From NCBI GenBank assembly GCA_038735125.1, contig JAVYNU010000010.1:1-61127 (forward strand): a stretch of DNA of 61,127 nt, written 5' to 3'. The stretch is from Ignisphaera sp. (GTDB lineage Archaea; Thermoproteota; Thermoprotei_A; Sulfolobales; Ignisphaeraceae). Of this stretch, positions 13,624 to 50,068 are shown in pieces; positions within the stretch are counted from its first letter, which is position 1; each line of letters begins with the position of its first letter. Position numbers and translations under genes: made by a program. The notes under the pieces are model-generated. The model ran no database searches. It was given only the letters and a program-made list of their open reading frames with translations, and was not told the DNA's origin.

Positions 13624-15291
13624 ATGATAGTATATTTCCATATTAGGCATACAACCTTTTATCCTACAAACTTTCGCTTTGCTCTCAAAAATATTAGCAC
13701 ATTAATATCTCAAACCTCTTGGTTGATATGCTTGTGGAGTTGGAATCCTAGGGATATTGGTAGACTTGTCGGTGTCATAACATCTGGTGCTAGGGCTTCT
13801 CTGGCACCTGTTAGAATATCTAGAGATGCGATGGACTATGTGAAGGATGAGATGCTGGCAATAGTGGATGATTTCCTAGAGGGTAGGAGGTTTCTCGGAG
13901 TATTTAAGAGTGGCACTAAAAAGGATCTTGCTATAGATGCTAATGCACTTCCAACAGTTTTCGACCCTGGGAAAAGCCATAGCTTCTCAGCACCTCTCAT
14001 GCATAGCTATGTCGAGATTATAGGGGAGATAAGCCCTGGTGGTGGAATATTTCTGAGTTTCGCTATTCCAAGACCTGGTAGCCATGTTTATACGGTTGAG
14101 GGGGGAGATATATTATCAGGTATACTAAAGCTTCCCCAGGGACTTTTCATAGGTTATCATAAGTTCGCTAATCTCGAGATAAATGTCAATCCAATTGCAT
14201 TAGACTATCACATAGCTGTTTTAGGTGCAACAGGATCTGGAAAATCTAGATTAGTGAAAGCAATTATAGAAGAGGTTTTGAGGAAGACACCAAACTATAG
14301 AATAATAATATTTGATCACACAGGTGTTGACTACGCTGACTCGTCTAGGTGGATAGGCTTTGAAAGCTCAATATCAGTTATAGACTCTTCAAATATTGTT
14401 CTAGAGCCAGATGTTATAGCTGATATAATTGTTGATCAGATGGGTTTGAGGAGATCCGAGTACCAAGATTATGTCTATGGGGCTGTGATAGAGTATATTA
14501 GGGGTGTTGTTGAGGAGCTGGAAAATCCATTGCAACAGGCAAAGACAAGGAGTTTCGGGAGAAGAAATGGGGATATAGAGCTTGGGGAGTTGCTGAAAAA
14601 GTATAGAGAGTTCAGCTCAAAGGGGTTGTTCAAATGGGACTTTAAACAATTTGTCAAGGTTCTCGAAACATATCTGCAAGCTATGAATGCTAGACAACAA
14701 ACAGTTGAAAAAATGAGGCTATTGCTATACACAAGGGTTGGCAAGGCATTTTTCGAGCAAAACCTGTCTAGAAGATCAACAGTTGTTGATGATGTTGTCG
14801 CAGATCTTTTCAACAGCACAAAGAAGGTTGTAATAATCGATTTATCGACAGAAGTAGAGTATGCTGCTAAGAATGCTATTGTATATCAATTTGTTAAGAA
14901 GATCTGGGACACTATTCTATATAGGAGGAGTAGAGCCAACATAATCGCTGTTGTTGATGAGGCTCACAACTATTGCTGTGCCTATGGATGTGAGCCTGCC
15001 AAAGACATTATTGCTAGGACTAGTAGAGAGGGTAGGAAATGGGGATTCGGACTAATCCTATCATCGCAGAGAGTCATAGATCTTGCACCAGAGATTAGAG
15101 GAAACATAAACACTGTTTTCTTCTCGCGTATGCAGACATCTGGAGACTATAATGAGTTGAGGAATTGGCTTGAGGGTGTGGAGTATATGGAGTATACACT
15201 TCCACTTCTATCGCCAAGAGAATTCTTCTTCACAGGGCTTGGCAATCCACTTAGAAGACCGTTGCTGGTGAGGGTCAGGGATGTTGCATGA
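13624..15291 (+). CDS. herA: HerA-type bipolar DNA helicase/translocase
   Basis: The protein is up to 555 residues. An N-terminal barrel-like region begins near IGRLVGVITSGARA (about residue 44). The HerA/FtsK-type ATPase core has Walker A GATGSGKSRL (about 201), Walker B IAVVDEAHN (about 445) and the SREGRKWGFGLILSSQR arginine-finger region (about 463). HerA forms a hexameric ring that pumps DNA and works with the nuclease NurA in end resection. ATG 13624 sits about 35 nt after a TATA-like CTTTATAAC; in-frame TTG codons at 13723 and 13732 are later alternatives. It overlaps nurA by 11 nt. Mre11 and Rad50 are not adjacent, unlike many archaeal HerA-NurA loci. Confidence 0.85.
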   Translation: MIVYFHIRHTTFYPTNFRFALKNISTLISQTSWLICLWSWNPRDIGRLVGVITSGARASLAPVRISRDAMDYVKDEMLAIVDDFLEGRRFLGVFKSGTKKDLAIDANALPTVFDPGKSHSFSAPLMHSYVEIIGEISPGGGIFLSFAIPRPGSHVYTVEGGDILSGILKLPQGLFIGYHKFANLEINVNPIALDYHIAVLGATGSGKSRLVKAIIEEVLRKTPNYRIIIFDHTGVDYADSSRWIGFESSISVIDSSNIVLEPDVIADIIVDQMGLRRSEYQDYVYGAVIEYIRGVVEELENPLQQAKTRSFGRRNGDIELGELLKKYREFSSKGLFKWDFKQFVKVLETYLQAMNARQQTVEKMRLLLYTRVGKAFFEQNLSRRSTVVDDVVADLFNSTKKVVIIDLSTEVEYAAKNAIVYQFVKKIWDTILYRRSRANIIAVVDEAHNYCCAYGCEPAKDIIARTSREGRKWGFGLILSSQRVIDLAPEIRGNINTVFFSRMQTSGDYNELRNWLEGVEYMEYTLPLLSPREFFFTGLGNPLRRPLLVRVRDVA

Positions 15292-16510
15292 AGATGAAGA
15301 GATTTCTGGAAAATCAATAGAGCTCACAGACGAAAACCCTGAGTTGACAACGGCTCTAGTTGAGGCTGCAAAGGATATTGTAAGCAAGGTCTATGCTAGT
15401 TATGCTAAGCCTGCTCTAGAGAATAGGGATAAAATTAGAAGATTTCTCGAGATTAGGAGGTTCCCTGGATCCGCAGAACAGGGTGGTAGAATAGTCGTAG
15501 CTGTTGATAGTACATGGAGCAAACCAACACTAGAGGTAGTGTCCGGAGTCTTCGGCGTTATAGTCTCTGGATATGTTGTTGTCGGCCCAAGTGGCACCTC
15601 ATCATATGAGATATGCAGGGTATCATCGATCGTTGGAAACAGCGAGAAATATGTGAATACAGCCATAGAAGTTTATGCAAAGACTTTAGAGTATGACACA
15701 GCTTTAAAGGCCCTAGATAAACATAGTTATGCTGATATGGTTATGCTTGACGGCTCTCTCTACTTCTCTACCCGCCCTTCGTTCTTTAACCCAGCTAAAC
15801 ATGTCGATGAGAGTTGCCTAGAAAATATCAAAGAAATCGACGAGCTCATATCTATAGGGTCATCAAAGTTGTTGAGGTTATTTAAAAAGGCATCTGATCT
15901 TGGAATACCTGTAGTTGGAGTTGTTAAAAGGGTTTCAAGCAGGTTTATAGCATCCTATATCGAGGAGCTTGACAACGAGCTTGCTAGGCTATTGAGGAGA
16001 CTAAATGACAAGGTTATACTTAGCTATGTTCTTGAGCCAGGAGAATTCACTGTTATAAGCAGCTATCTGGATATATTTAAGAAGCATCTCAACATAATGA
16101 AAAGATCGTCAAAAGCATCAAAACAGAAAAGGATACAAGCAATACTGGATGTGCTTGAAACGTGTTCGAGTGGAAAAGCTGTTGATGAATTAAAGAATCT
16201 CTGTGATGTTATGAGAGAAACTGCTATAGTCTTCTACAAACCGGTTAGCGATATGGTATATCCCCAGGCTATAAGACTAGATGTGTATCCAAGGTCAAGA
16301 ATAGAAGAAGTCATAGAATATGTAACGCATAACACATCTCAAAATGCTGTACCAATACCAATAGACTATGCTGATAGATTCATAAGACTTGAAACAGCAT
16401 CGTTGAAGAGACTGTATAGACTCATCATGGCATATGGTGCTGAGGCTGGAGGCGATGCACAAATAGCACTTGGTTTAACAAATCCTCAGAAAAGCTATTT
16501 ATTTACCTAA
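15281..16510 (+). CDS. nurA: NurA-domain 5'-3' nuclease
   Basis: The 409-residue protein has the NurA pattern. The first catalytic aspartate motif is VVAVDST (about residue 70), then MLDGSL (about 156), and a VGVVKRVSSR basic motif lies around residue 210. A charged linker occupies residues 245-300. NurA is the Mn-dependent nuclease partner threaded through the HerA ring. GGTGAGGG precedes the ATG, and the start overlaps the last codons of herA, so the two are cotranslated. The C-terminus ends with LGLTNPQKSY, similar to other NurA ends. Confidence 0.85.
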   Translation: MLHEDEEISGKSIELTDENPELTTALVEAAKDIVSKVYASYAKPALENRDKIRRFLEIRRFPGSAEQGGRIVVAVDSTWSKPTLEVVSGVFGVIVSGYVVVGPSGTSSYEICRVSSIVGNSEKYVNTAIEVYAKTLEYDTALKALDKHSYADMVMLDGSLYFSTRPSFFNPAKHVDESCLENIKEIDELISIGSSKLLRLFKKASDLGIPVVGVVKRVSSRFIASYIEELDNELARLLRRLNDKVILSYVLEPGEFTVISSYLDIFKKHLNIMKRSSKASKQKRIQAILDVLETCSSGKAVDELKNLCDVMRETAIVFYKPVSDMVYPQAIRLDVYPRSRIEEVIEYVTHNTSQNAVPIPIDYADRFIRLETASLKRLYRLIMAYGAEAGGDAQIALGLTNPQKSYLFT

Positions 16511-39994: not shown

Positions 39995-41146
39995 ATGAAC
40001 AGAAAAGCTTTGGTAACAATCATAATAGCGATTATTGTTGTAGCTGTACTCTCATACCTATTCATAAAGACTGCACCTCCATCTGCCTCCCCCCAAACAA
40101 CAATGACTCAAACAACAAGAACAACGATAACAACACAAACACCTCAGACCACATACAATGTTATAATCCAAGGAGCTGGTTCCTCACTTGTGTATCCACA
40201 GCTAAATGAGTGGATCCAATTGTTCTATTCTCAAAAAGGTATAAAGGTTAGTTACCAATCTGTGGGAAGTGGTGCGGGTCTAAGCATGTTCTTCCAGAAT
40301 GTAACCGACTTTGCCTGTTCGGATCCGCCTCTATCGAGAGATATGTGGTTAAAGTATAATGGAAGTGTTTTACAGATTCCTTGGCTTGCTGGAGCAGTTG
40401 CAATAGTATACAATGTGCCTGAAATCCCTTCTAACTACATCTTGAAGCTTGATGGATCTGTTTTGGCAGATATTTACAAGGGATCTATAGTTTACTGGGA
40501 TGATCCAAGGATAAAAAGCCTCAACACTGACATAGCAAATAAGCTTCCACATGAAGAGATAAGACCTGTCTATAGAACCGATGCGAGCGGGACAACAGAG
40601 GTATTCACAACATTTCTATACAAATCAACTAATGGTTCGTGGCCTAAAGACCTCGTAGGGAAAACCGTTAACTGGCCTGTTATATCATCTGGTAGGAGTG
40701 TGGGTAGCAAGGGCAGTGAGGGAGTAACCCAGATAGTTATGCAAACACAATATACCATTGGATATGTTGAGTGGAGCTATGCAATACTAAATAACCTTCC
40801 TGTTGCTGCAATAAAGAATGCTGCAGGGGTTTTCGTGACGCCATCCAATAGTTCGATAATAGCCTCTCTAGAAAAAGCCACTTTACCTCAATCGCCACTC
40901 AGCGACTTTAGCGAAGATGCGTATCAAATTGTTTATGCTCCTGGCGAAAATAGCTATCCCATAACAGCGCCAACACATATAATACTATGGAGGAAATATG
41001 GGGATTCGACAAAGGCTTTGGCGATAAAGGAGTTTCTGAAGTGGGTTGCTGAAGAAGGTTATAAACACATTATACAAGGATATGTTGCACCACCTGAGAA
41101 TATCAGAAACCTTTTAATTGGGGCTGCAAACATAATATCGTCTTAG
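39995..41146 (+). CDS. pstS: Phosphate ABC transporter substrate-binding protein PstS
   Basis: The 383-residue protein has an N-terminal membrane anchor (about 5-24), a Thr/Gln-rich linker, then a PstS fold. VIIQGAGSSLVYPQLNEW and YQSVGSGAGLSMF contain the phosphate-binding Ser/Gly residues, followed by FACSDPPLS, and DASGTTEVF with VGSKGSEGVTQ form the second half of the site. It captures inorganic phosphate outside the membrane for PstCAB. Monoderm archaea anchor it by the N-terminal helix. It is the first gene of pstSCAB-phoU. Confidence 0.93.
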   Translation: MNRKALVTIIIAIIVVAVLSYLFIKTAPPSASPQTTMTQTTRTTITTQTPQTTYNVIIQGAGSSLVYPQLNEWIQLFYSQKGIKVSYQSVGSGAGLSMFFQNVTDFACSDPPLSRDMWLKYNGSVLQIPWLAGAVAIVYNVPEIPSNYILKLDGSVLADIYKGSIVYWDDPRIKSLNTDIANKLPHEEIRPVYRTDASGTTEVFTTFLYKSTNGSWPKDLVGKTVNWPVISSGRSVGSKGSEGVTQIVMQTQYTIGYVEWSYAILNNLPVAAIKNAAGVFVTPSNSSIIASLEKATLPQSPLSDFSEDAYQIVYAPGENSYPITAPTHIILWRKYGDSTKALAIKEFLKWVAEEGYKHIIQGYVAPPENIRNLLIGAANIISS

Positions 41147-41157
41147 GGCAAGACATT

Positions 41158-42075
41158 ATGAGGATTAGTAGAAAAGACATGCTATTTTTCCTAACACTCA
41201 TACCCTTCTCGATTTCTCTCCTAGCCATACTTGCTATAGCTATTCTTGTCCTTATTTCAAGATCTTTTGATGCTTTAAACACCTTTGGTTATAGCCTCTT
41301 CACAACCAGTGTATGGGATCCTGAACACGGTAGATATGGTCTTTTAGCACCGATAATAGGCTCTATAACAACATCTATTCTGGCTACAGCAACGGCACTC
41401 ATATTTTCAGTGCCACTAGCTATTCTATTAGCTGAGTATTTACATGATTTGGTTAGAGATGTTCTATCGTCTATTGTCGAGCTTATGAGTGGTGTGCCAA
41501 CAATTATATATGCTATGTGGGCATCTATGTACCTAGCACCAATATTGAAAACCTATGTTATGGATCCTCTAAGCATGTACATATCCTTCATACCCATATT
41601 CTCTTGCAAACCAGTCACAGCTTTCACATTATTTTCTGCAGGAATATCCATAGGGATATCGATAACACCTTACGTTACTGCAATGATATTTGAATCTTAT
41701 GAGAGTATCCCAATAACCTATAAGGAGGCTTGTCTAGGCATTGGGGCAACAAGATATGAAACGATAAAGGTGTTGCTATCGCTAGCAAAACCGGCTATAA
41801 TAGCGTCGGTTATACTTGGATTTGCAAGAGCTTTGGGCGAAACAACAATTGCTGTGACAACAATTGGCAACTCAATGTATCTAGGCTCGTGCATATTTTC
41901 GCCAGGGTATACAGTCTCTGCTCTAATAGCTTCTCAGTTTAGCAATGCTTACCTTTATAGGTATGCAGAGTCGGTTCTATACACATCTGCATTGGTTGTC
42001 CTAGTTATTGCAATTATCCTTAGCTTTATTGGTCTGTCTTTAATGAGTAGGTGGAGGAGGAGGGTAGTTGTATAA
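41158..42075 (+). CDS. pstC: Phosphate ABC transporter permease PstC
   Basis: The 305-residue membrane protein has six hydrophobic segments and the permease coupling loop EACLGIGATRYETIKVLLSLAKPAI (about 194-218, EAA motif region), then GFARALGETTIAV, a hallmark of Pst permeases. It pairs with PstA to form the channel. It starts 11 nt after pstS and ends overlapping pstA. Confidence 0.92.
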   Translation: MRISRKDMLFFLTLIPFSISLLAILAIAILVLISRSFDALNTFGYSLFTTSVWDPEHGRYGLLAPIIGSITTSILATATALIFSVPLAILLAEYLHDLVRDVLSSIVELMSGVPTIIYAMWASMYLAPILKTYVMDPLSMYISFIPIFSCKPVTAFTLFSAGISIGISITPYVTAMIFESYESIPITYKEACLGIGATRYETIKVLLSLAKPAIIASVILGFARALGETTIAVTTIGNSMYLGSCIFSPGYTVSALIASQFSNAYLYRYAESVLYTSALVVLVIAIILSFIGLSLMSRWRRRVVV

Positions 42076-42913
42076 GTGGAGAAAAGCAAAGGATAGAATA
42101 TTCTTTGCTGTAATATTGATACTGTCTATCATAGCCATCACACCAATCATACACTTGATAGTTGTAACCCTAGCCAACGGACTGTCAGTTATTCTTAGAG
42201 CTGGCCCTAGCTTCTTCACAAGCATCCCACCAACCCCAACATCAAAAGAGGTTGGTGGTATAGCACCATCGCTGGTAGGCTCCCTAATGCTAACAGCACT
42301 AGCCCTCCCAATAACAATTGTGATAGCCTTGTTCTCTTCCATCATGGTTAACGAGTTTCCTAGAAACCCCCTGTCTATAGCTGTTGATGTTGTTGCAAAG
42401 TCTTTGGCCAGTATCCCAACAATAGCAGTCTCAATGGTTGTATACCTCCTCATTGTAGTTCCCATGAGAACCTTCTCAACACTTGCAGGTGCCGTAGCGT
42501 TAACAATAGTTTCTCTCCCATATGCATACACATACTTCTCAACATATCTGCGCTCAGTACCAGAGATATATAGGGAAGCTGCATACTCTATAGCTATGTC
42601 TAGGTGGGAAACAATCATAAGAATTTTTCTACCTATTATAAGAAGAGGTTTTTTGGTAGCAGTTCTTATGACCATGGCTAGAATACTCGGCGAAACAGCC
42701 GCGCTACTATTCACCGTTGGGAGGTATAGAATAGGTGTATCAACATCTATTCTGGGGCCAACAGATGCACTACCACTTCTAATATTCGACTATATACTCA
42801 CCCCCTACAGAAACTTCCAGGAGATTGCGTGGGGTGCTGCTGCACTGTTGTTACTTGCATACCTAATTATTTTCATTGCTACTAAACTTGCTGTTAGAGA
42901 GGTGAAGTTGTAG
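42068..42913 (+). CDS. pstA: Phosphate ABC transporter permease PstA
   Basis: The 281-residue permease has REAAYSIAMSRWETIIRIFLP (EAA loop, about 175) and MARILGETAALLFTVG, the matching PstA signature. TTG 42068 overlaps the pstC stop and is preceded by a strong GGAGG-type ribosome binding site. The stop TAG shares its last base with the pstB start. Confidence 0.92.
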   Translation: MYKWRKAKDRIFFAVILILSIIAITPIIHLIVVTLANGLSVILRAGPSFFTSIPPTPTSKEVGGIAPSLVGSLMLTALALPITIVIALFSSIMVNEFPRNPLSIAVDVVAKSLASIPTIAVSMVVYLLIVVPMRTFSTLAGAVALTIVSLPYAYTYFSTYLRSVPEIYREAAYSIAMSRWETIIRIFLPIIRRGFLVAVLMTMARILGETAALLFTVGRYRIGVSTSILGPTDALPLLIFDYILTPYRNFQEIAWGAAALLLLAYLIIFIATKLAVREVKL

Positions 42914-43662
42914 TGTATGCTGTTGAGATGGAGAATGTCAATGTATATATAGGTGATAGACACATACTAAAGAACATAAGTTTGAGGATACCGTACAATT
43001 CCATCTATGTCATTATGGGTCCCTCAGGCTCTGGGAAAACAACCATCCTAAGAGTTATAAACAGGCTTATAGATGTAAATCATGATGCTAGAATCGAGGG
43101 TGTAATAAAAGTCCTAGGCTTTGATGCGCTGAATAAGGATCCATATGAACTTAGAAGATATATAGGGATGGTGTTCCAAACCCCTAACCCGTTTCCACAT
43201 ATGACCATATATGAGAATGTTGCAATAGCTGCGAAAATTAACGGTGTTGCTAAGAATAGGAAAGACCTCGATGCTATTGTCAAATGGGCTCTTGAAAAGG
43301 CTATGCTTTGGGATGAGGTTAAAGATAGACTCCATGACTATCCTCACCAGCTTAGCGGGGGACAGAAACAGAGGCTCTGCTTAGCAAGGGCGCTTGCCAT
43401 GAAGCCAAAGCTTCTATTGTTAGACGAGCCAACAGCAAACATAGACCCTGTTAATGCTAGAAAACTTGAGGAGGCTATAGTATCTCTAAAAGATGAGATT
43501 ACAGTCATTATGGTTACGCACTACCCACATCAGGCAGCAAGAGTTGCAGACTACGTAACAATAGTGTATGATGGTAGGGTTGTTGAACAGGGGCCAGCCA
43601 ACCAAATATTTTTAAGGCCATCCACAGAACTTGCTCAAAAGCTTTTGAGAGGCGAGATATAG
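42913..43662 (+). CDS. pstB: Phosphate ABC transporter ATP-binding protein PstB
   Basis: The 249-residue ATPase has Walker A GPSGSGKTT (about 37), Q-loop GMVFQTPNPFP, signature LSGGQKQRLCLARALA (about 143), Walker B LLLLDEPTANIDP and H-loop THYPHQA. QTPNPFP is typical of PstB. GTG 42913 overlaps the pstA stop by one base and has GAGGTGA 6 nt upstream. Confidence 0.95.
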   Translation: MYAVEMENVNVYIGDRHILKNISLRIPYNSIYVIMGPSGSGKTTILRVINRLIDVNHDARIEGVIKVLGFDALNKDPYELRRYIGMVFQTPNPFPHMTIYENVAIAAKINGVAKNRKDLDAIVKWALEKAMLWDEVKDRLHDYPHQLSGGQKQRLCLARALAMKPKLLLLDEPTANIDPVNARKLEEAIVSLKDEITVIMVTHYPHQAARVADYVTIVYDGRVVEQGPANQIFLRPSTELAQKLLRGEI

Positions 43663-44286
43663 TTGTCTCTAACTGTTTCAGAACTTGAGAAACTCAAAGT
43701 GATATTGCTTCACATGGCTGAAAACACCAGGGCTATAGCCAGGCACACAATGAATCTGTTTTTAGCTAATAGTTTAGAGGATAGAAAGAGACTCTGGAAA
43801 GAGATAGATGATTTATCGATGATATTAGATAAAATTAGAAGAGAGTTTGTAACAGAGGTTCTGGTTTTCATAGCTAGGAGACAGCCCCTGGGAAAGGAGC
43901 TTCTATCAGCACATGCATTAATAAGCATAGCATATGATGTGTATAGAATATCTCGTTACTGTAGAGAAATAGCACGAATAGACTCTTTACTAATGCCAGT
44001 CTCCGCCATATCAACTATCCAAAACATTTCTAGCATATTTAAAGAAGCTCTAAAGGCATTGGATGCTGCACTAAGTGATCTTGTAGACTTTTCGCCGAAG
44101 AGAATTGAAATAGTTAATGAGGTTGATAACCATGTTGATAAAGAGTACCAGGATATACTAAGAGAGATAACAACTAGTGATGTTGTTTCAAGAGAGAAGG
44201 CAGTAAAGGCGCTGATAATGAGACATATAGAGAGAATAGTTGACCATGCGCAGTATATAGAGCAGCACTTATCAGAGGTTATATGA
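43663..44286 (+). CDS. phoU: PhoU-family phosphate transport regulator
   Basis: The 207-residue all-helical protein forms two three-helix bundles, with a metal-binding E/DxxxD-type motif near EVDNHVDKEYQD (about 150) and a late HIERIVDHAQYIEQH. It starts directly after the pstB stop, with GAGGCGAG upstream of TTG. PhoU restrains Pst uptake when phosphate is plentiful. Confidence 0.88.
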   Translation: MSLTVSELEKLKVILLHMAENTRAIARHTMNLFLANSLEDRKRLWKEIDDLSMILDKIRREFVTEVLVFIARRQPLGKELLSAHALISIAYDVYRISRYCREIARIDSLLMPVSAISTIQNISSIFKEALKALDAALSDLVDFSPKRIEIVNEVDNHVDKEYQDILREITTSDVVSREKAVKALIMRHIERIVDHAQYIEQHLSEVI

Positions 44287-44380: not shown

Positions 44381-45721
44381 ATGTTTATTACCTTTGTAGC
44401 ATTCTCCTCTTTTAATGAGGTTAATGAGATTATGTGCGATGCTGAGGAATTGCTGATGAGGATTAGAGAGAGCGTTCACATTGATTCGAATAGAATTATC
44501 AGATTTGATAATGTTGATAGTATAAGTTTATTTGACAATTTTAGAAGCTGTGTTATAGAGTCTGTGGTAGGAAATGACATATCAACTATCTATCATTGGA
44601 TTTCCCATACAAAGAAGATTCTTGATGAGTTAACCAAGCTTCTCAATATCCCTGGCTATACCTTCTCTAAAGAATTCTCATCATTTTTGTTAGACCCTTT
44701 TCAACATCTAAAGAAAAAGATATTTAACTATGCCTATGATCTTGTTAGGAAAGGTATGGGGCTAGAGGATTTCTATTCCAAGGTGCTCCAAGCAATCACA
44801 ACATCTATTAGAACTAATTTGAGGAGCTGTTATCAGATATGGGCACTGGCCTCTATAATGAAAATCTTAGGCGGAATGGGCTACACCATTGCCTATCCAG
44901 AGAACAGATATCTAAACTTTGATCGGAGTGGAAAACAGAAGCTTGGGGTTATACCACCAAACTTTATTTTGTTCAATATTGGAAAGGGCTATTTGAGTTT
45001 TTTCCATGAAGCTCCAAGGCCTCTTAGCTGGGAGGATACAAGTGATTTGCAGAAGGTCTGGGGTTTGTATACTGCTTTGAGACTTGATGTCATGGTGTAT
45101 AGTGGAAGGGTTCTAGACATAGTTAATTTATCTAATAATCCACCAATCGAGAGACCACAGGTGATATTAGAGTTCAAGGAGTTAGAGGATTGGTGGAAAA
45201 GAGCAAGGGATCTTAGAGGCTATTTCAGAAAACCTCTAACAGCCGAGGAGTGGAAGTCCAAATGGATTGAAGGTCTTTTCGAGGGGTTGGGAGAGGCGAT
45301 GAGCATTAAGAAAACTGAGGTTAGGAGAAGGATTGAGGAGGGGTCGTCTCTGAGAGTAAAAGAGTATCAGCTTATTCTCCTCTACAAATCCACCTACAAG
45401 CCTAATAGGATTGTTCTTGTATCGAGGAAGGAGATTCCAGCTAATATAAAGAAATGGCTTTTGGATGCTGGGATAGATGTTATAGACTCTGTTGAATTTA
45501 ATGAAATGAAACTTGAAGATGTGGCTCAGATTCTAGATGGATTCGTGTCATTTGGCTCTGTAAACAATGTTGTGATAGAGGTTTCTAGAGATGTTGCAAA
45601 AAAGCTTGAGGATATTAGGAGGTTGCTAGGGTTTAAAGACCTAAACGAGGTTCTTGATTATCTTTTTAAGGTCTTTAACGCTAAGAGTGGGGGTAATGAC
45701 AATAACTTTCTCTATAAATGA
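44381..45721 (+). CDS. Candidate PD-(D/E)XK-type protein in an XPB-Bax1 operon, unnamed
   Basis: A 446-residue protein of no family I can name. The N-terminal half is helical. In the middle, LRLDVMVYSGR (Asp, about 231) followed by RPQVILEFKEL (Glu-x-Lys, about 266) has the spacing of a PD-(D/E)XK nuclease core. The last 50 residues (VVIEVSRDVAKKLEDIRRLLG...LNEVLDYLFK) resemble a ribbon-helix-helix module. It overlaps the following XPB-like gene by 26 nt or more, so it is part of that operon and probably of the same complex. ATG 44381 is used; an internal ATG before CDAEELL is possible. Nuclease activity is inference. Confidence 0.6.
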   Translation: MFITFVAFSSFNEVNEIMCDAEELLMRIRESVHIDSNRIIRFDNVDSISLFDNFRSCVIESVVGNDISTIYHWISHTKKILDELTKLLNIPGYTFSKEFSSFLLDPFQHLKKKIFNYAYDLVRKGMGLEDFYSKVLQAITTSIRTNLRSCYQIWALASIMKILGGMGYTIAYPENRYLNFDRSGKQKLGVIPPNFILFNIGKGYLSFFHEAPRPLSWEDTSDLQKVWGLYTALRLDVMVYSGRVLDIVNLSNNPPIERPQVILEFKELEDWWKRARDLRGYFRKPLTAEEWKSKWIEGLFEGLGEAMSIKKTEVRRRIEEGSSLRVKEYQLILLYKSTYKPNRIVLVSRKEIPANIKKWLLDAGIDVIDSVEFNEMKLEDVAQILDGFVSFGSVNNVVIEVSRDVAKKLEDIRRLLGFKDLNEVLDYLFKVFNAKSGGNDNNFLYK

Positions 45722-47336
45722 GAAACTTAACAACGAGTTTTTCTCAGAATTGGATAAGATAGCAGATATTGTGAAATACGATGTGGAGTCACATACATGG
45801 ATATATAGATTAAATCCTGCCAAGGTCTCTTTCTATGGATTTGAAAAAACTATAGAATTTATTGTAAATAAGCTTGGGATAAACATACCGTTAAGAGCAT
45901 TGGAGCATCTTAAAAAGATTTCTTCTGAGCCTATCCATGTATTCGTTGATCTGAAAGATGATGCGCTACATCTATACCCATTGAATACAAGTGTTCTGGG
46001 TTCACTACTTGAGATGGGGATTGTAAGATATGATCTAATTTCCAAAGTGTTTAAAGCAAGGATAAGAGCTCTACACATGATTCTTGATCATCTTAATGAG
46101 GGTGGATATAGAGTTAAGCTGGGATTTCAGATAGATTACAGAGCATCTTTTAAATCATTTTTTAGCATCGCTCTTAAAACCTATCAGGAGGAGGCCTATA
46201 AAGCGTGGAAGGAGGCTGGATGCAGGGGTATTGTTGTTATGCCTGTTGGTGCTGGGAGAATGGCTATAGCTTTAAAGGCTATTGATGAACTGAAGGTCAG
46301 AACTGTTATCCTTGTTCCAAGCATAGATTCTTTATATAAGTGGGTTGGCTACCTAGTCAAGTATCTGAATGTCTCTCTCAAGGATATTGGCGTCTTTGGT
46401 GGTGGGAGAAGGGAGATTAAAGAGATAACAGTGATGACATATGACATGGCATCTTCCAACCTATGGAAAGTGCCAACTTATTTCGGTTTGCTGATAGCCG
46501 ATGAGTGCCACTTTGCTGTTAGCGATACCTATAGAAATGCATTAAACAATGTTACAGCTCCATATAGACTAGGCTTGACCCAAACCCCGAATAGAGATGA
46601 TGGGCTACACAGATACTATAAAGCTGTTCTTGGGCCAATAGTCTACAGCATAAGCTTGAATGAGTTTCGCGAAAAGAAATGTTTTAGGAGTCCAAAGGGG
46701 TTTATAGTTCATGTCGGGCTATCTAGAGAGGAGTATGAAGAATATAAAAGACTTATGAAGATGTATCTAAATTATTGTAGATCTGTTTACCCAAGTACTA
46801 GAGACATTGGAGAAAGGTTTAGAAGAGTTTTGGAGCTGAGTCCATTAGATCAAGGGGCCAGAGAGGCGCTGAGAGCTAGGCTAAAAGCAAGGAAAATAGT
46901 TTTGAACATTGATAGAAAGATCAGGGTTGTGGAACGTCTTTTGAAGAGGTTTGAAAACGAGAAGATTTTGATATTTTCTAAGTATCCAGGGGTTGTGAGG
47001 AGAATAGCTAGACAACTTCTTATTCCCAGGATATTGCCTGATACTCCAGAGGATGAGAAGAGGGTTTATCTCAAGATGTTCAGATATGGCGATATAAGGG
47101 TCTTGGCTACATCGATAATCTTTGATAAAACATTTGACAACTTTCCAGAGCCAAATGTGGCAATAGTTGTGAGTGGTGTGATACCTGGTAGAGACTACGT
47201 TAAGAGGATACTCGAAATACTTAAGCCTGGAGACAAACAGCCTCTACTAATAGAGATAGTCACTAAAATTGGTAAGATAGAACCATCAATAGAGATGAAA
47301 GAAGCTGAACAAAATATGCAGGTGGCCAGTCAATGA
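45696..47336 (+). CDS. XPB/Rad25-like SF2 helicase with altered Walker A
   Basis: About 546 residues. The N-terminal region resembles the XPB damage-recognition domain. The SF2 core has a Q-motif-like YQEEAYKAW (about 163), motif I PVGAGRM (183-189), motif II DECH (269-272) and motif III LGLTQTP (292-298), with late VSGVIPGRDYVKR near motif VI. The invariant Lys-Thr of Walker A is Arg-Met here, so ATP hydrolysis is probably weak or lost; motif III also departs from TATP. It is followed with a 4-nt overlap by a Bax1 gene, the usual XPB partner in archaea. ATG 45696 with GGGGGT upstream is preferred over 45654. Confidence 0.78.
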   Translation: MTITFSINEKLNNEFFSELDKIADIVKYDVESHTWIYRLNPAKVSFYGFEKTIEFIVNKLGINIPLRALEHLKKISSEPIHVFVDLKDDALHLYPLNTSVLGSLLEMGIVRYDLISKVFKARIRALHMILDHLNEGGYRVKLGFQIDYRASFKSFFSIALKTYQEEAYKAWKEAGCRGIVVMPVGAGRMAIALKAIDELKVRTVILVPSIDSLYKWVGYLVKYLNVSLKDIGVFGGGRREIKEITVMTYDMASSNLWKVPTYFGLLIADECHFAVSDTYRNALNNVTAPYRLGLTQTPNRDDGLHRYYKAVLGPIVYSISLNEFREKKCFRSPKGFIVHVGLSREEYEEYKRLMKMYLNYCRSVYPSTRDIGERFRRVLELSPLDQGAREALRARLKARKIVLNIDRKIRVVERLLKRFENEKILIFSKYPGVVRRIARQLLIPRILPDTPEDEKRVYLKMFRYGDIRVLATSIIFDKTFDNFPEPNVAIVVSGVIPGRDYVKRILEILKPGDKQPLLIEIVTKIGKIEPSIEMKEAEQNMQVASQ

Positions 47337-48601
47337 CCCTAGGCCTGTTCGATATACCACTTAAAGAATTTGAGGAAGGACTCTACAAACCAAGATATTT
47401 GGACACACTTTCTGATCAAGACTTAGTCAACTCCATTATACAGTTTTACAGCTCTATTGTCGGTATGAGGTTTGGAGATGTTGATTGGAATGAGCTAAGA
47501 ATAGCTATTGGAGATAGACAACTCTTTAAAGCTATAAGAAAGATTATGACAGGATTTTATACTCCTCTACGCGATATGAAAGTATGCGATACACCTGTAT
47601 CCCCCAAGGTTCTGAGGATACAAGCTTTTCAGCAAATCAATAAGAGGTTTGGTGGCTTTGCATCTTCAGAGAATAGACGAAGGATTATAAAAAACGTTAT
47701 ACATGCTCTTCGCCTTCCAAAGTCAATAGAATTAGATGAGGTTTTGTGGTGTGATGAGATAGACAAAGCTGTCATCAAGAAAGTTGAGGAGCCTTCTGTA
47801 GATAAGGTGGTGAAGGAATACAATTTACAAGTTTTCAATACATTGTGCAGAAATAGTATCTATATTGTTATATACTTTGGAGAAGATTGCCCAGCCAAAG
47901 ACATTATAAGATCCATCAATAGAAGCTCGAAGCTCTATGGAATTCTATGGGACGCTAAATACGCAAACAATGGCTATACAATCATGATTGAGGGTCCTAA
48001 GAGACTATTTGGCAAGGCATCGAGATATGGCTACAGAATAGCACAAACACTTTTAACAATCATCCCACTTTTGCGTGATTGCAAAGCTTATTGGTACATA
48101 GATGCAATTCTATATGCTAAATGGGCGGATATTAAGGTTCGTATGCTATCTAACGATATTGTTCCCCAGCTTTCGCTTGACCACTGGCTCTTAATAAAAC
48201 CTGTGTTTGATAGTAACATTCTTGAGAGAATATATGAAGCGTTGAAGGTGCTGGGACTCAAAATATCTAAGTGTGAAGATCCTGTAATAATCAATGACAC
48301 TATTTATATGCCTGACTTCGAGATTAGAGCCAATAACGATATTTTCTACGTAGAGGTTATAGGTTTCTGGAGAAGGGAGCTCGCTGAGAGAGTGGCAAAG
48401 AGACTTTCATTTATATCAAAAATAGTTAATAACATCATGGTTATAGCCGAAGAACCATTAAAAGAGTTTTTAGATGGTATAGAAATATTCACAATATACT
48501 ATAGAATTATTGATGGAGTTCCTAGAGCTCCTTACAAAAAAATAGTTGATTATATAACGAAAGGAATGACCAAGAAAAAGTCTCACACTAAAATAGTATA
48601 G
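47333..48601 (+). CDS. Bax1-type nuclease (DUF790), XPB partner
   Basis: The 422-residue protein carries the Bax1 nuclease motif near its C-terminus: MPDFEIRAN (Asp, about 323) and FYVEVIGFWRRELAE (Glu, then Gly-Phe-Trp), a PD-(D/E)XK variant typical of the family. N-terminal residues (LYKPRYL) also match Bax1 style. In archaea Bax1 cuts DNA beside bubbles opened by XPB, forming a minimal excision-repair machine. The 4-nt overlap with the XPB-like gene supports a complex. Confidence 0.82.
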   Translation: MTLGLFDIPLKEFEEGLYKPRYLDTLSDQDLVNSIIQFYSSIVGMRFGDVDWNELRIAIGDRQLFKAIRKIMTGFYTPLRDMKVCDTPVSPKVLRIQAFQQINKRFGGFASSENRRRIIKNVIHALRLPKSIELDEVLWCDEIDKAVIKKVEEPSVDKVVKEYNLQVFNTLCRNSIYIVIYFGEDCPAKDIIRSINRSSKLYGILWDAKYANNGYTIMIEGPKRLFGKASRYGYRIAQTLLTIIPLLRDCKAYWYIDAILYAKWADIKVRMLSNDIVPQLSLDHWLLIKPVFDSNILERIYEALKVLGLKISKCEDPVIINDTIYMPDFEIRANNDIFYVEVIGFWRRELAERVAKRLSFISKIVNNIMVIAEEPLKEFLDGIEIFTIYYRIIDGVPRAPYKKIVDYITKGMTKKKSHTKIV

Positions 48602-49931: not shown

Positions 49932-50068
49932 TGGTGGGCCCGGGGGGATTTGAACCCCCGACCTACGGGTCTCTCCTCAACGCTCCAGCCTCCTCTCATC
50001 CCATGCGGTCGACAGACCCATAGAGTCTAGCTGGAGCCCGCCGCTCTACCTAGCTGAGCTACGGGCCC
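49932..50068 (-). tRNA. tRNA-Trp(CCA) with 60-nt intron
   Basis: Read on the minus strand: acceptor GGGCCCG pairs with CGGGCCC, D-arm starts GCTC, anticodon stem is GCGGG/CCCGT and T-arm is GGGGG/CCCCC. Removing the intron gives the seven-base loop CTCCAGA, with anticodon CCA (Trp) and G37. Discriminator A is followed by an encoded CCA. A relaxed bulge-helix-bulge can be drawn: a CTCC/GGAG helix with three-base bulges AGC and AGA, each cut after its second base, which gives the mature loop. Confidence 0.92.
49971..50030 (-). ncRNA. tRNA-Trp intron with box C/D-like guide elements
   Basis: The 60-nt intron contains GCTGGAGC (49982-49989), an 8-nt complement of the anticodon loop, preceded by GGGATGA (6 of 7 match to box C) and followed one base later by TTGA (box D-like). 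The fifth base before TTGA pairs with C34. A second element GGGTCT pairs with the 3' anticodon stem and is followed one base later by TCGA; the fifth base before TCGA pairs with C39. Euryarchaeal tRNA-Trp introns guide methylation at exactly 34 and 39. The D-like boxes are imperfect, so function is uncertain. Confidence 0.4.

Follow-up and report, generated by a model that had tools for sequence, protein, structure and literature searches.

Organization of the locus

The window, which is the whole stretch of 61,127 nucleotides of Ignisphaera sp. DNA analysed here, carries on its forward strand, at 44381-48601, a tight unit of three genes that we name A (nuclease-like), X (XPB-like) and B (Bax1). 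The three open reading frames, at 44381-45721, 45654-47336 and 47333-48601 (all +), lie where the original prediction had put them. Gene A most likely begins at the ATG at 44432, where the alignments of its relatives also begin and which follows, 10 nt downstream, a Shine-Dalgarno-like GAGGT (44417-44421, +) read from the sequence. Its likely coding region (44432-45721, +) would thus specify a 429-aa candidate PD-(D/E)xK nuclease. For gene X the most likely start is the ATG at 45696, giving a coding region of 546 aa (45696-47336, +) for a putatively ATPase-dead XPBII-like protein (Pfam ResIII, 4e-19). With these refined starts, the predicted overlap of A with the XPB-like gene from upstream is retained, measuring 26 nt. 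Gene B (47333-48601, +) encodes Bax1 (DUF790; Pfam E 2e-42) and overlaps X by 4 nt. The overlapping reading frames suggest that A, X and B are translationally coupled.

Other features of the window are worth recording. A pst-phoU phosphate uptake operon occupies 39995-44286, between a molybdopterin oxidoreductase gene and the triplet; pstB/phoU-type genes also precede A in one of the related genomes described below (G024), and are not found there in two others (G034 and G052). At 13624-16510, a HerA-like ATPase gene (DUF87) overlaps a 409-aa open reading frame (15281-16510), making a HerA-nuclease pair plausible. On the reverse strand, at 49935-50068, a tRNA match extends over 134 bases; this exceeds the length of a plain tRNA and suggests an intron-containing tRNA gene.

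Gene X: an XPB-like protein with degenerate motor motifs

The original prediction described an XPB-like protein with Arg and Met codons in motif I, a retained DECH and a TQTP motif III, and all of this holds at the codon level. Motif I (degenerate Walker A; 46248-46262, +) reads GGT GCT GGG AGA ATG, that is GAGRM, where the loci containing only an X-B pair end in GKT. Alignment with relatives places the retained motif II, DECH, at 46500-46511 (+), and motif III at 46575-46589 (+) is LTQTP, being LTATP in active relatives. The degeneration goes further than had been noticed, since motif V and the QRxGRxxR arginine motif of motif VI are also gone: the former (47124-47156, +) is DKTFDNFPEPN instead of the DEGVDVPDA of active relatives, and the latter (47196-47228, +) is YVKRILEILKP instead of YVQRLGRILRP. 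X therefore has the DExH of motif II, and lacks both the GxGKT Walker A and the motif VI arginines that characterize active XPB/XPBII helicases of superfamily 2 (SF2). The residues lost are invariant across 27 XPBII/XPB-like relatives, and with the NCBIfam XPB model X reaches 142.9 bits, far under the cut-off of 610.

Motif I with its Lys and Thr, motif V and the arginine residues in motif VI are all required by SF2 helicases. Since all three motifs are degenerate in X, ATP hydrolysis by this protein is very unlikely, and the earlier reading of a non-hydrolysing XPB gains support from these losses and from their occurrence in a recurring triplet.

The losses are unevenly distributed along the protein. 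Among 94 positions of X that are invariant in active relatives, the triplet proteins retain 33% of those within motifs I, V and VI and 65% of those outside them (permutation test, p 0.0009), and of the positions matching the contacts that XPB makes to Bax1 in the S. tokodaii XPB-Bax1 complex (PMC7293015), about 70% are retained. Taken together, these values indicate that it is the motor that has been lost from X, and not the protein as a whole; the retention of the contact residues likewise suggests that the Bax1 interface is not the part that was lost. An AlphaFold prediction of X made from 3 sequences reached a pLDDT of 44, and an intact fold is assumed here.

Gene B: Bax1 with an eroding active site

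B is homologous to DUF790 over its whole length, matches the Bax1 chains of the PDB at E 7e-17 and lies beside an XPB-like gene. One PDB chain that matches Bax1 lengthwise, in entry 8gy8, is labelled "Putative translation initiation factor (IF-2 homolog)", and is apparently a mislabelled Bax1. The VRR-Nuc-like nuclease motifs of B lie at 48212-48370 (+) and read SNILERI (SSIEESI in the pair loci, with a Glu to Leu change), MPDF, which keeps the catalytic Asp, and YVEVIGFW, which is also kept. The catalytic Asp of Bax1 is D301 in S. solfataricus (PMC7293015), and it aligns to the PDF motif, which has the Asp in the window and a Thr in G024 (PTF). In place of SSxEE the window has SNILE, and G034 and G052 have TRADT; in these last two genomes GFW has also become NYW. 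Because these motifs are eroded in the triplets and kept, with minor variation, in intact X-B pairs, the nuclease activity of Bax1 in the triplets is doubtful and probably lineage-dependent.

Gene A: a candidate nuclease of an undescribed family

Seven residues of A are invariant over 23 homologues with 17-70% identity: E193, R217, D219, E247, K249, Y318 and P324, numbered from the Met at 44432. The key sites are E193 (45008), D219 (45086) and E247-x-K249 (45170/45176). D219 stands in an RLD context in the window and in RPD in relatives, and the resulting order E…RPD…ExK is that of PD-(D/E)xK nucleases, the upstream acidic residue being also present. The AlphaFold model of A (mean pLDDT 78.9, pTM 0.78) has a helix-rich N-terminal part; D219 opens one predicted strand, E247 and K249 end the next, adjacent strand, and a helix-strand-helix-strand succession follows, as would be expected of a PD-(D/E)xK fold. 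On the basis of its motif and predicted secondary structure, A is likely a PD-(D/E)xK nuclease, and the nuclease candidacy already proposed for it is strengthened by the invariance of the Asp, the ExK and the upstream Glu over such diverged homologues. As for the ribbon-helix-helix tail that was also proposed, one member of the alignment has RHH_3 at E 0.16 and the predicted helices at 385-398 and 403-420 are compatible with such a domain, which gives this assignment weak support. The claim of two nuclease-like proteins in the operon stands for A as a candidate and may be overstated for Bax1, whose Asp is replaced by Thr in one triplet and whose other motifs erode in all of them.

Nothing above cut-off was obtained for A from Pfam, NCBIfam or PADLOC, and PHROGs yielded no match. 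When profiles of A were searched against PDB sequences, chance matches alone came up, and Foldseek comparison of the A model with PDB and BFVD yielded nothing at E<=0.001. Weak Foldseek matches to Cdn1 and to a receiver domain were rejected, none of them reaching that threshold, and a relationship to Bax1 was discarded as the profile comparison was empty.

A is present in 86 of the order's 214 genomes (about 40%, a few being remote partial matches) and in 59 of 398 genomes sampled from the phylum (15%), with no relatives in viral contigs. Its remote homologues, of about 370 aa, have mainly the C-terminal core in common with it. Proteins of about 370 aa from Thermoproteota (L138-L142 and L144-L148) carry the pattern EF…RPD…ECK…Q(x3)Y without any Pfam or NCBIfam match, and would constitute an undescribed PD-(D/E)xK-like family remotely related to A. 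At about 60 other A loci neither X nor B is nearby and no neighbour is constant, A being usually solo. Given that A occurs without adjacent X-B in more than 80 other genomes of the order, a platform formed by X and B would not be general to A.

Recurrence of the triplet and of the intact pair

Ignisphaera are archaea of hot springs, and the A-X-B arrangement was found in four of the 11 genomes of the genus: G000 (the genome of the window), G024, G034 (contig C70) and G052. The G052 triplet spans two contigs, which we read as one operon because they share an exact 127-bp end. X-B pairs without an adjacent A were found at seven loci, in G034 (contig C13), G074, G092, G044, G061, G013 and G010, so that G034 carries both forms, a triplet with a dead X and a pair with an intact one. 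Motif I of the A-linked X proteins is GAGRM, GASRM, PERRR and PERRR, and motif VI is absent from all four, while the DEC of motif II is kept in each of them. In the pair loci without A, GKT and QRLGRILRP are present in 7/7, and the 20 Sulfolobaceae-type XPBII sequences, each adjoining Bax1, are all intact. In one of the other genomes (G066, C1:392860-393965), a Sulfolobaceae-type Bax1 beside an intact XPBII matches in two pieces in different frames, possibly owing to a frameshift.

A canonical Walker A is thus kept in none of the four triplets. As the loss recurs in 4/4 homologous triplets of separately assembled genomes, a sequencing error is excluded and the substitution in X is not a local one. 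The original prediction had proposed a survey for recurrence of the triplet with the R-M substitution: the triplet does recur, and the R-M pair occurs in two of the four, the other two having R-R. Close relatives of X were found in Ignisphaera and a few neighbours, in a search that covered 147 of the order's 214 genomes; the searches with A and DUF790 covered 214/214. A single-protein scan of the genome contigs with X gave no match.

The second XPB with intact GKT that had been proposed to exist in the same genome, which is 99.9% complete, was located at C1:500221-501600. It has GTGKT, DEVHH, SAT and QRLGRILRP, is not adjacent to Bax1, and belongs to the general archaeal kind of XPB (XPBI-type) rather than being an XPBII with its motifs intact. 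No second Bax1/DUF790 was found in a search of this genome, and the DUF790 search places no other Bax1 in three of the four triplet genomes.

Origin and selection

The triplet X proteins form one clade in the tree (support 100/100), and group with the intact X-B pairs (100/100), being members of the XPBII lineage by ancestry. The triplet B proteins also form one clade (support 100), nested beside intact Ignisphaera pairs. All the losses thus trace to one origin, and the association of motor loss with A counts as a single evolutionary event, not four, which later split into two states.

Between the G034 and G052 triplets, both with PERRR, dN/dS is 0.14/1.27 for A, 0.19/1.20 for X and 0.17/1.33 for B; dS is saturated for wider triplet pairs, which were excluded. 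The ratio after motor loss is thus 0.11-0.16 across A, X and B, which is clear purifying selection on all three genes. A is the best conserved of the three proteins among triplets, with 59-76% identity, X having 43-72% and B 36-73%.

G000, G034 and G052 have a common locus in which a methyltransferase and a molybdopterin oxidoreductase precede A-X-B; in the window the pst operon stands between the molybdopterin oxidoreductase and A. In G098, the methyltransferase, A and an amidohydrolase follow each other with no X-B between, and in G034 the amidohydrolase comes after A-X-B. By this comparison A is the resident gene, behind which X-B has been added or lost. In the A tree, the triplet pairs and G098/G074 form a three-way split with no branching order, so the tree does not give the order of events.

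Proposed mechanism and alternatives

The explanation that we prefer, to which we give about an even chance, is that an inactivated XPBII-Bax1 paralogue has been retained in the role of a platform that binds DNA for A independently of ATP. A crenarchaeal XPBII-Bax1 pair would have been duplicated and, on a single occasion in the lineage of Ignisphaera, would have come to lie immediately behind A; Walker A, motif V and motif VI, and with them the XPB motor, would have been lost and the unit retained under selection. X would still fold like XPB and, with no ATP cycle, still bind Bax1 and DNA, the X-B pair recognizing DNA structures such as a fork, a bubble or a lesion. This platform would present DNA to A, which would make the main cut, possibly with the help of Bax1 where its active site survives, and the intact XPBI encoded elsewhere in the genome would keep the general XPB work. 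The more specific version, in which the dead XPBII and the fading Bax1 deliver A to branched or damaged DNA as an excision-type repair complex without XPB ATPase, is put forward tentatively, as something we consider possible but would not bet on.

The motor-less X-B unit might also have a repair role of its own, with the dead XPB acting as a chaperone or inhibitor of Bax1 and A being only a co-transcribed neighbour. XPB breaks and regulates Bax1 homodimers (PMC7293015), the Bax1-interface residues of X are retained and A is solo in most genomes, all of which fit such a role; however, motor loss is found only beside A and in none of the seven unlinked X-B loci, and the three genes remain adjacent where the flanking ones differ, so we regard it as rather unlikely. 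A decaying, functionless paralogue that chanced to sit behind A would account for the faster evolution of triplet X and B relative to their intact relatives (stem branches 0.58-0.87) and for the erosion of the B nuclease motifs in a different way in each lineage. Nevertheless, the dN/dS values given above disfavour decay (0.13-0.16 for lineages that separated once the motor was gone), every reading frame is open in the four genomes, whose proteins are 36-57% identical, X retains residues beyond its motor motifs at about twice the level seen within them, and the triplet holds the sole Bax1 in 3/4 genomes, which makes it distinctly improbable. Of the suggestion that this is a decayed paralogue with an active XPB elsewhere, then, the second half is supported by the intact XPBI-type gene and the first is disfavoured.

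A defence complex had also been suggested, and an antiviral module would agree with the patchy occurrence of the triplet within the genus and with weak PADLOC matches of X to the SF2 helicases of PbeA and restriction systems. These matches are common to any XPB-like helicase, though, and PADLOC gives none for A or B; the neighbours are housekeeping genes in conserved chromosomal synteny, and A is a widespread chromosomal gene that lacks viral relatives, so that this proposal is not upheld and seems to us highly improbable. That X hydrolyses ATP by a non-canonical mechanism is barely credible: the DEC of motif II is indeed kept in 4/4 copies, but the motif I Lys and Thr, most of motif V and the motif VI arginines have been lost together.

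The XPB motor is thought to be central to the role of XPB. An XPB that selection has maintained without its motor, and that is tied to a nuclease, would constitute a natural separation of functions and show what XPB does without ATP; G034, with active and dead copies in one genome, offers a matched comparison. The A family is also a candidate for a repair or recombination nuclease still missing from those archaea in which DNA repair is poorly understood. XPBII-Bax1 is already known, but the searchable literature yielded no paper describing an XPB without its motor or the Bax1 of Ignisphaera, nor any account of such a unit, maintained by selection, in one operon with an undescribed family of nuclease-like proteins.

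Comparison with known systems

Several known systems resemble parts of this operon. A is like the members of the PD-(D/E)xK superfamily (Hjc, RecB-like, VRR-Nuc) in its E…RPD…ExK order and predicted strand-strand-helix, and differs in that neither profile nor fold searches connect it with any named member, for which reason it is filed as nuclease-like. X belongs to the same SF2 fold family as the general archaeal XPB (XPBI-type), with about 30% identity, but the latter has intact motifs and no linkage to Bax1. In AddAB, AddB is an inactivated helicase-fold subunit kept for DNA recognition beside a nuclease, and it is the nearest analogue of X, in function only; AddAB is a bacterial SF1 system with another nuclease, and homology is not claimed. 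There is also the crenarchaeal XPBII-Bax1 helicase-nuclease complex known from S. tokodaii and S. solfataricus (PMC7293015, PMC7672443), with which X-B shares adjacent genes, homologous proteins, the Bax1 nuclease domain and a largely kept interface region, and from which the triplet differs in the loss of motifs I, V and VI, the partly eroded Bax1 active site and the extra upstream gene A.
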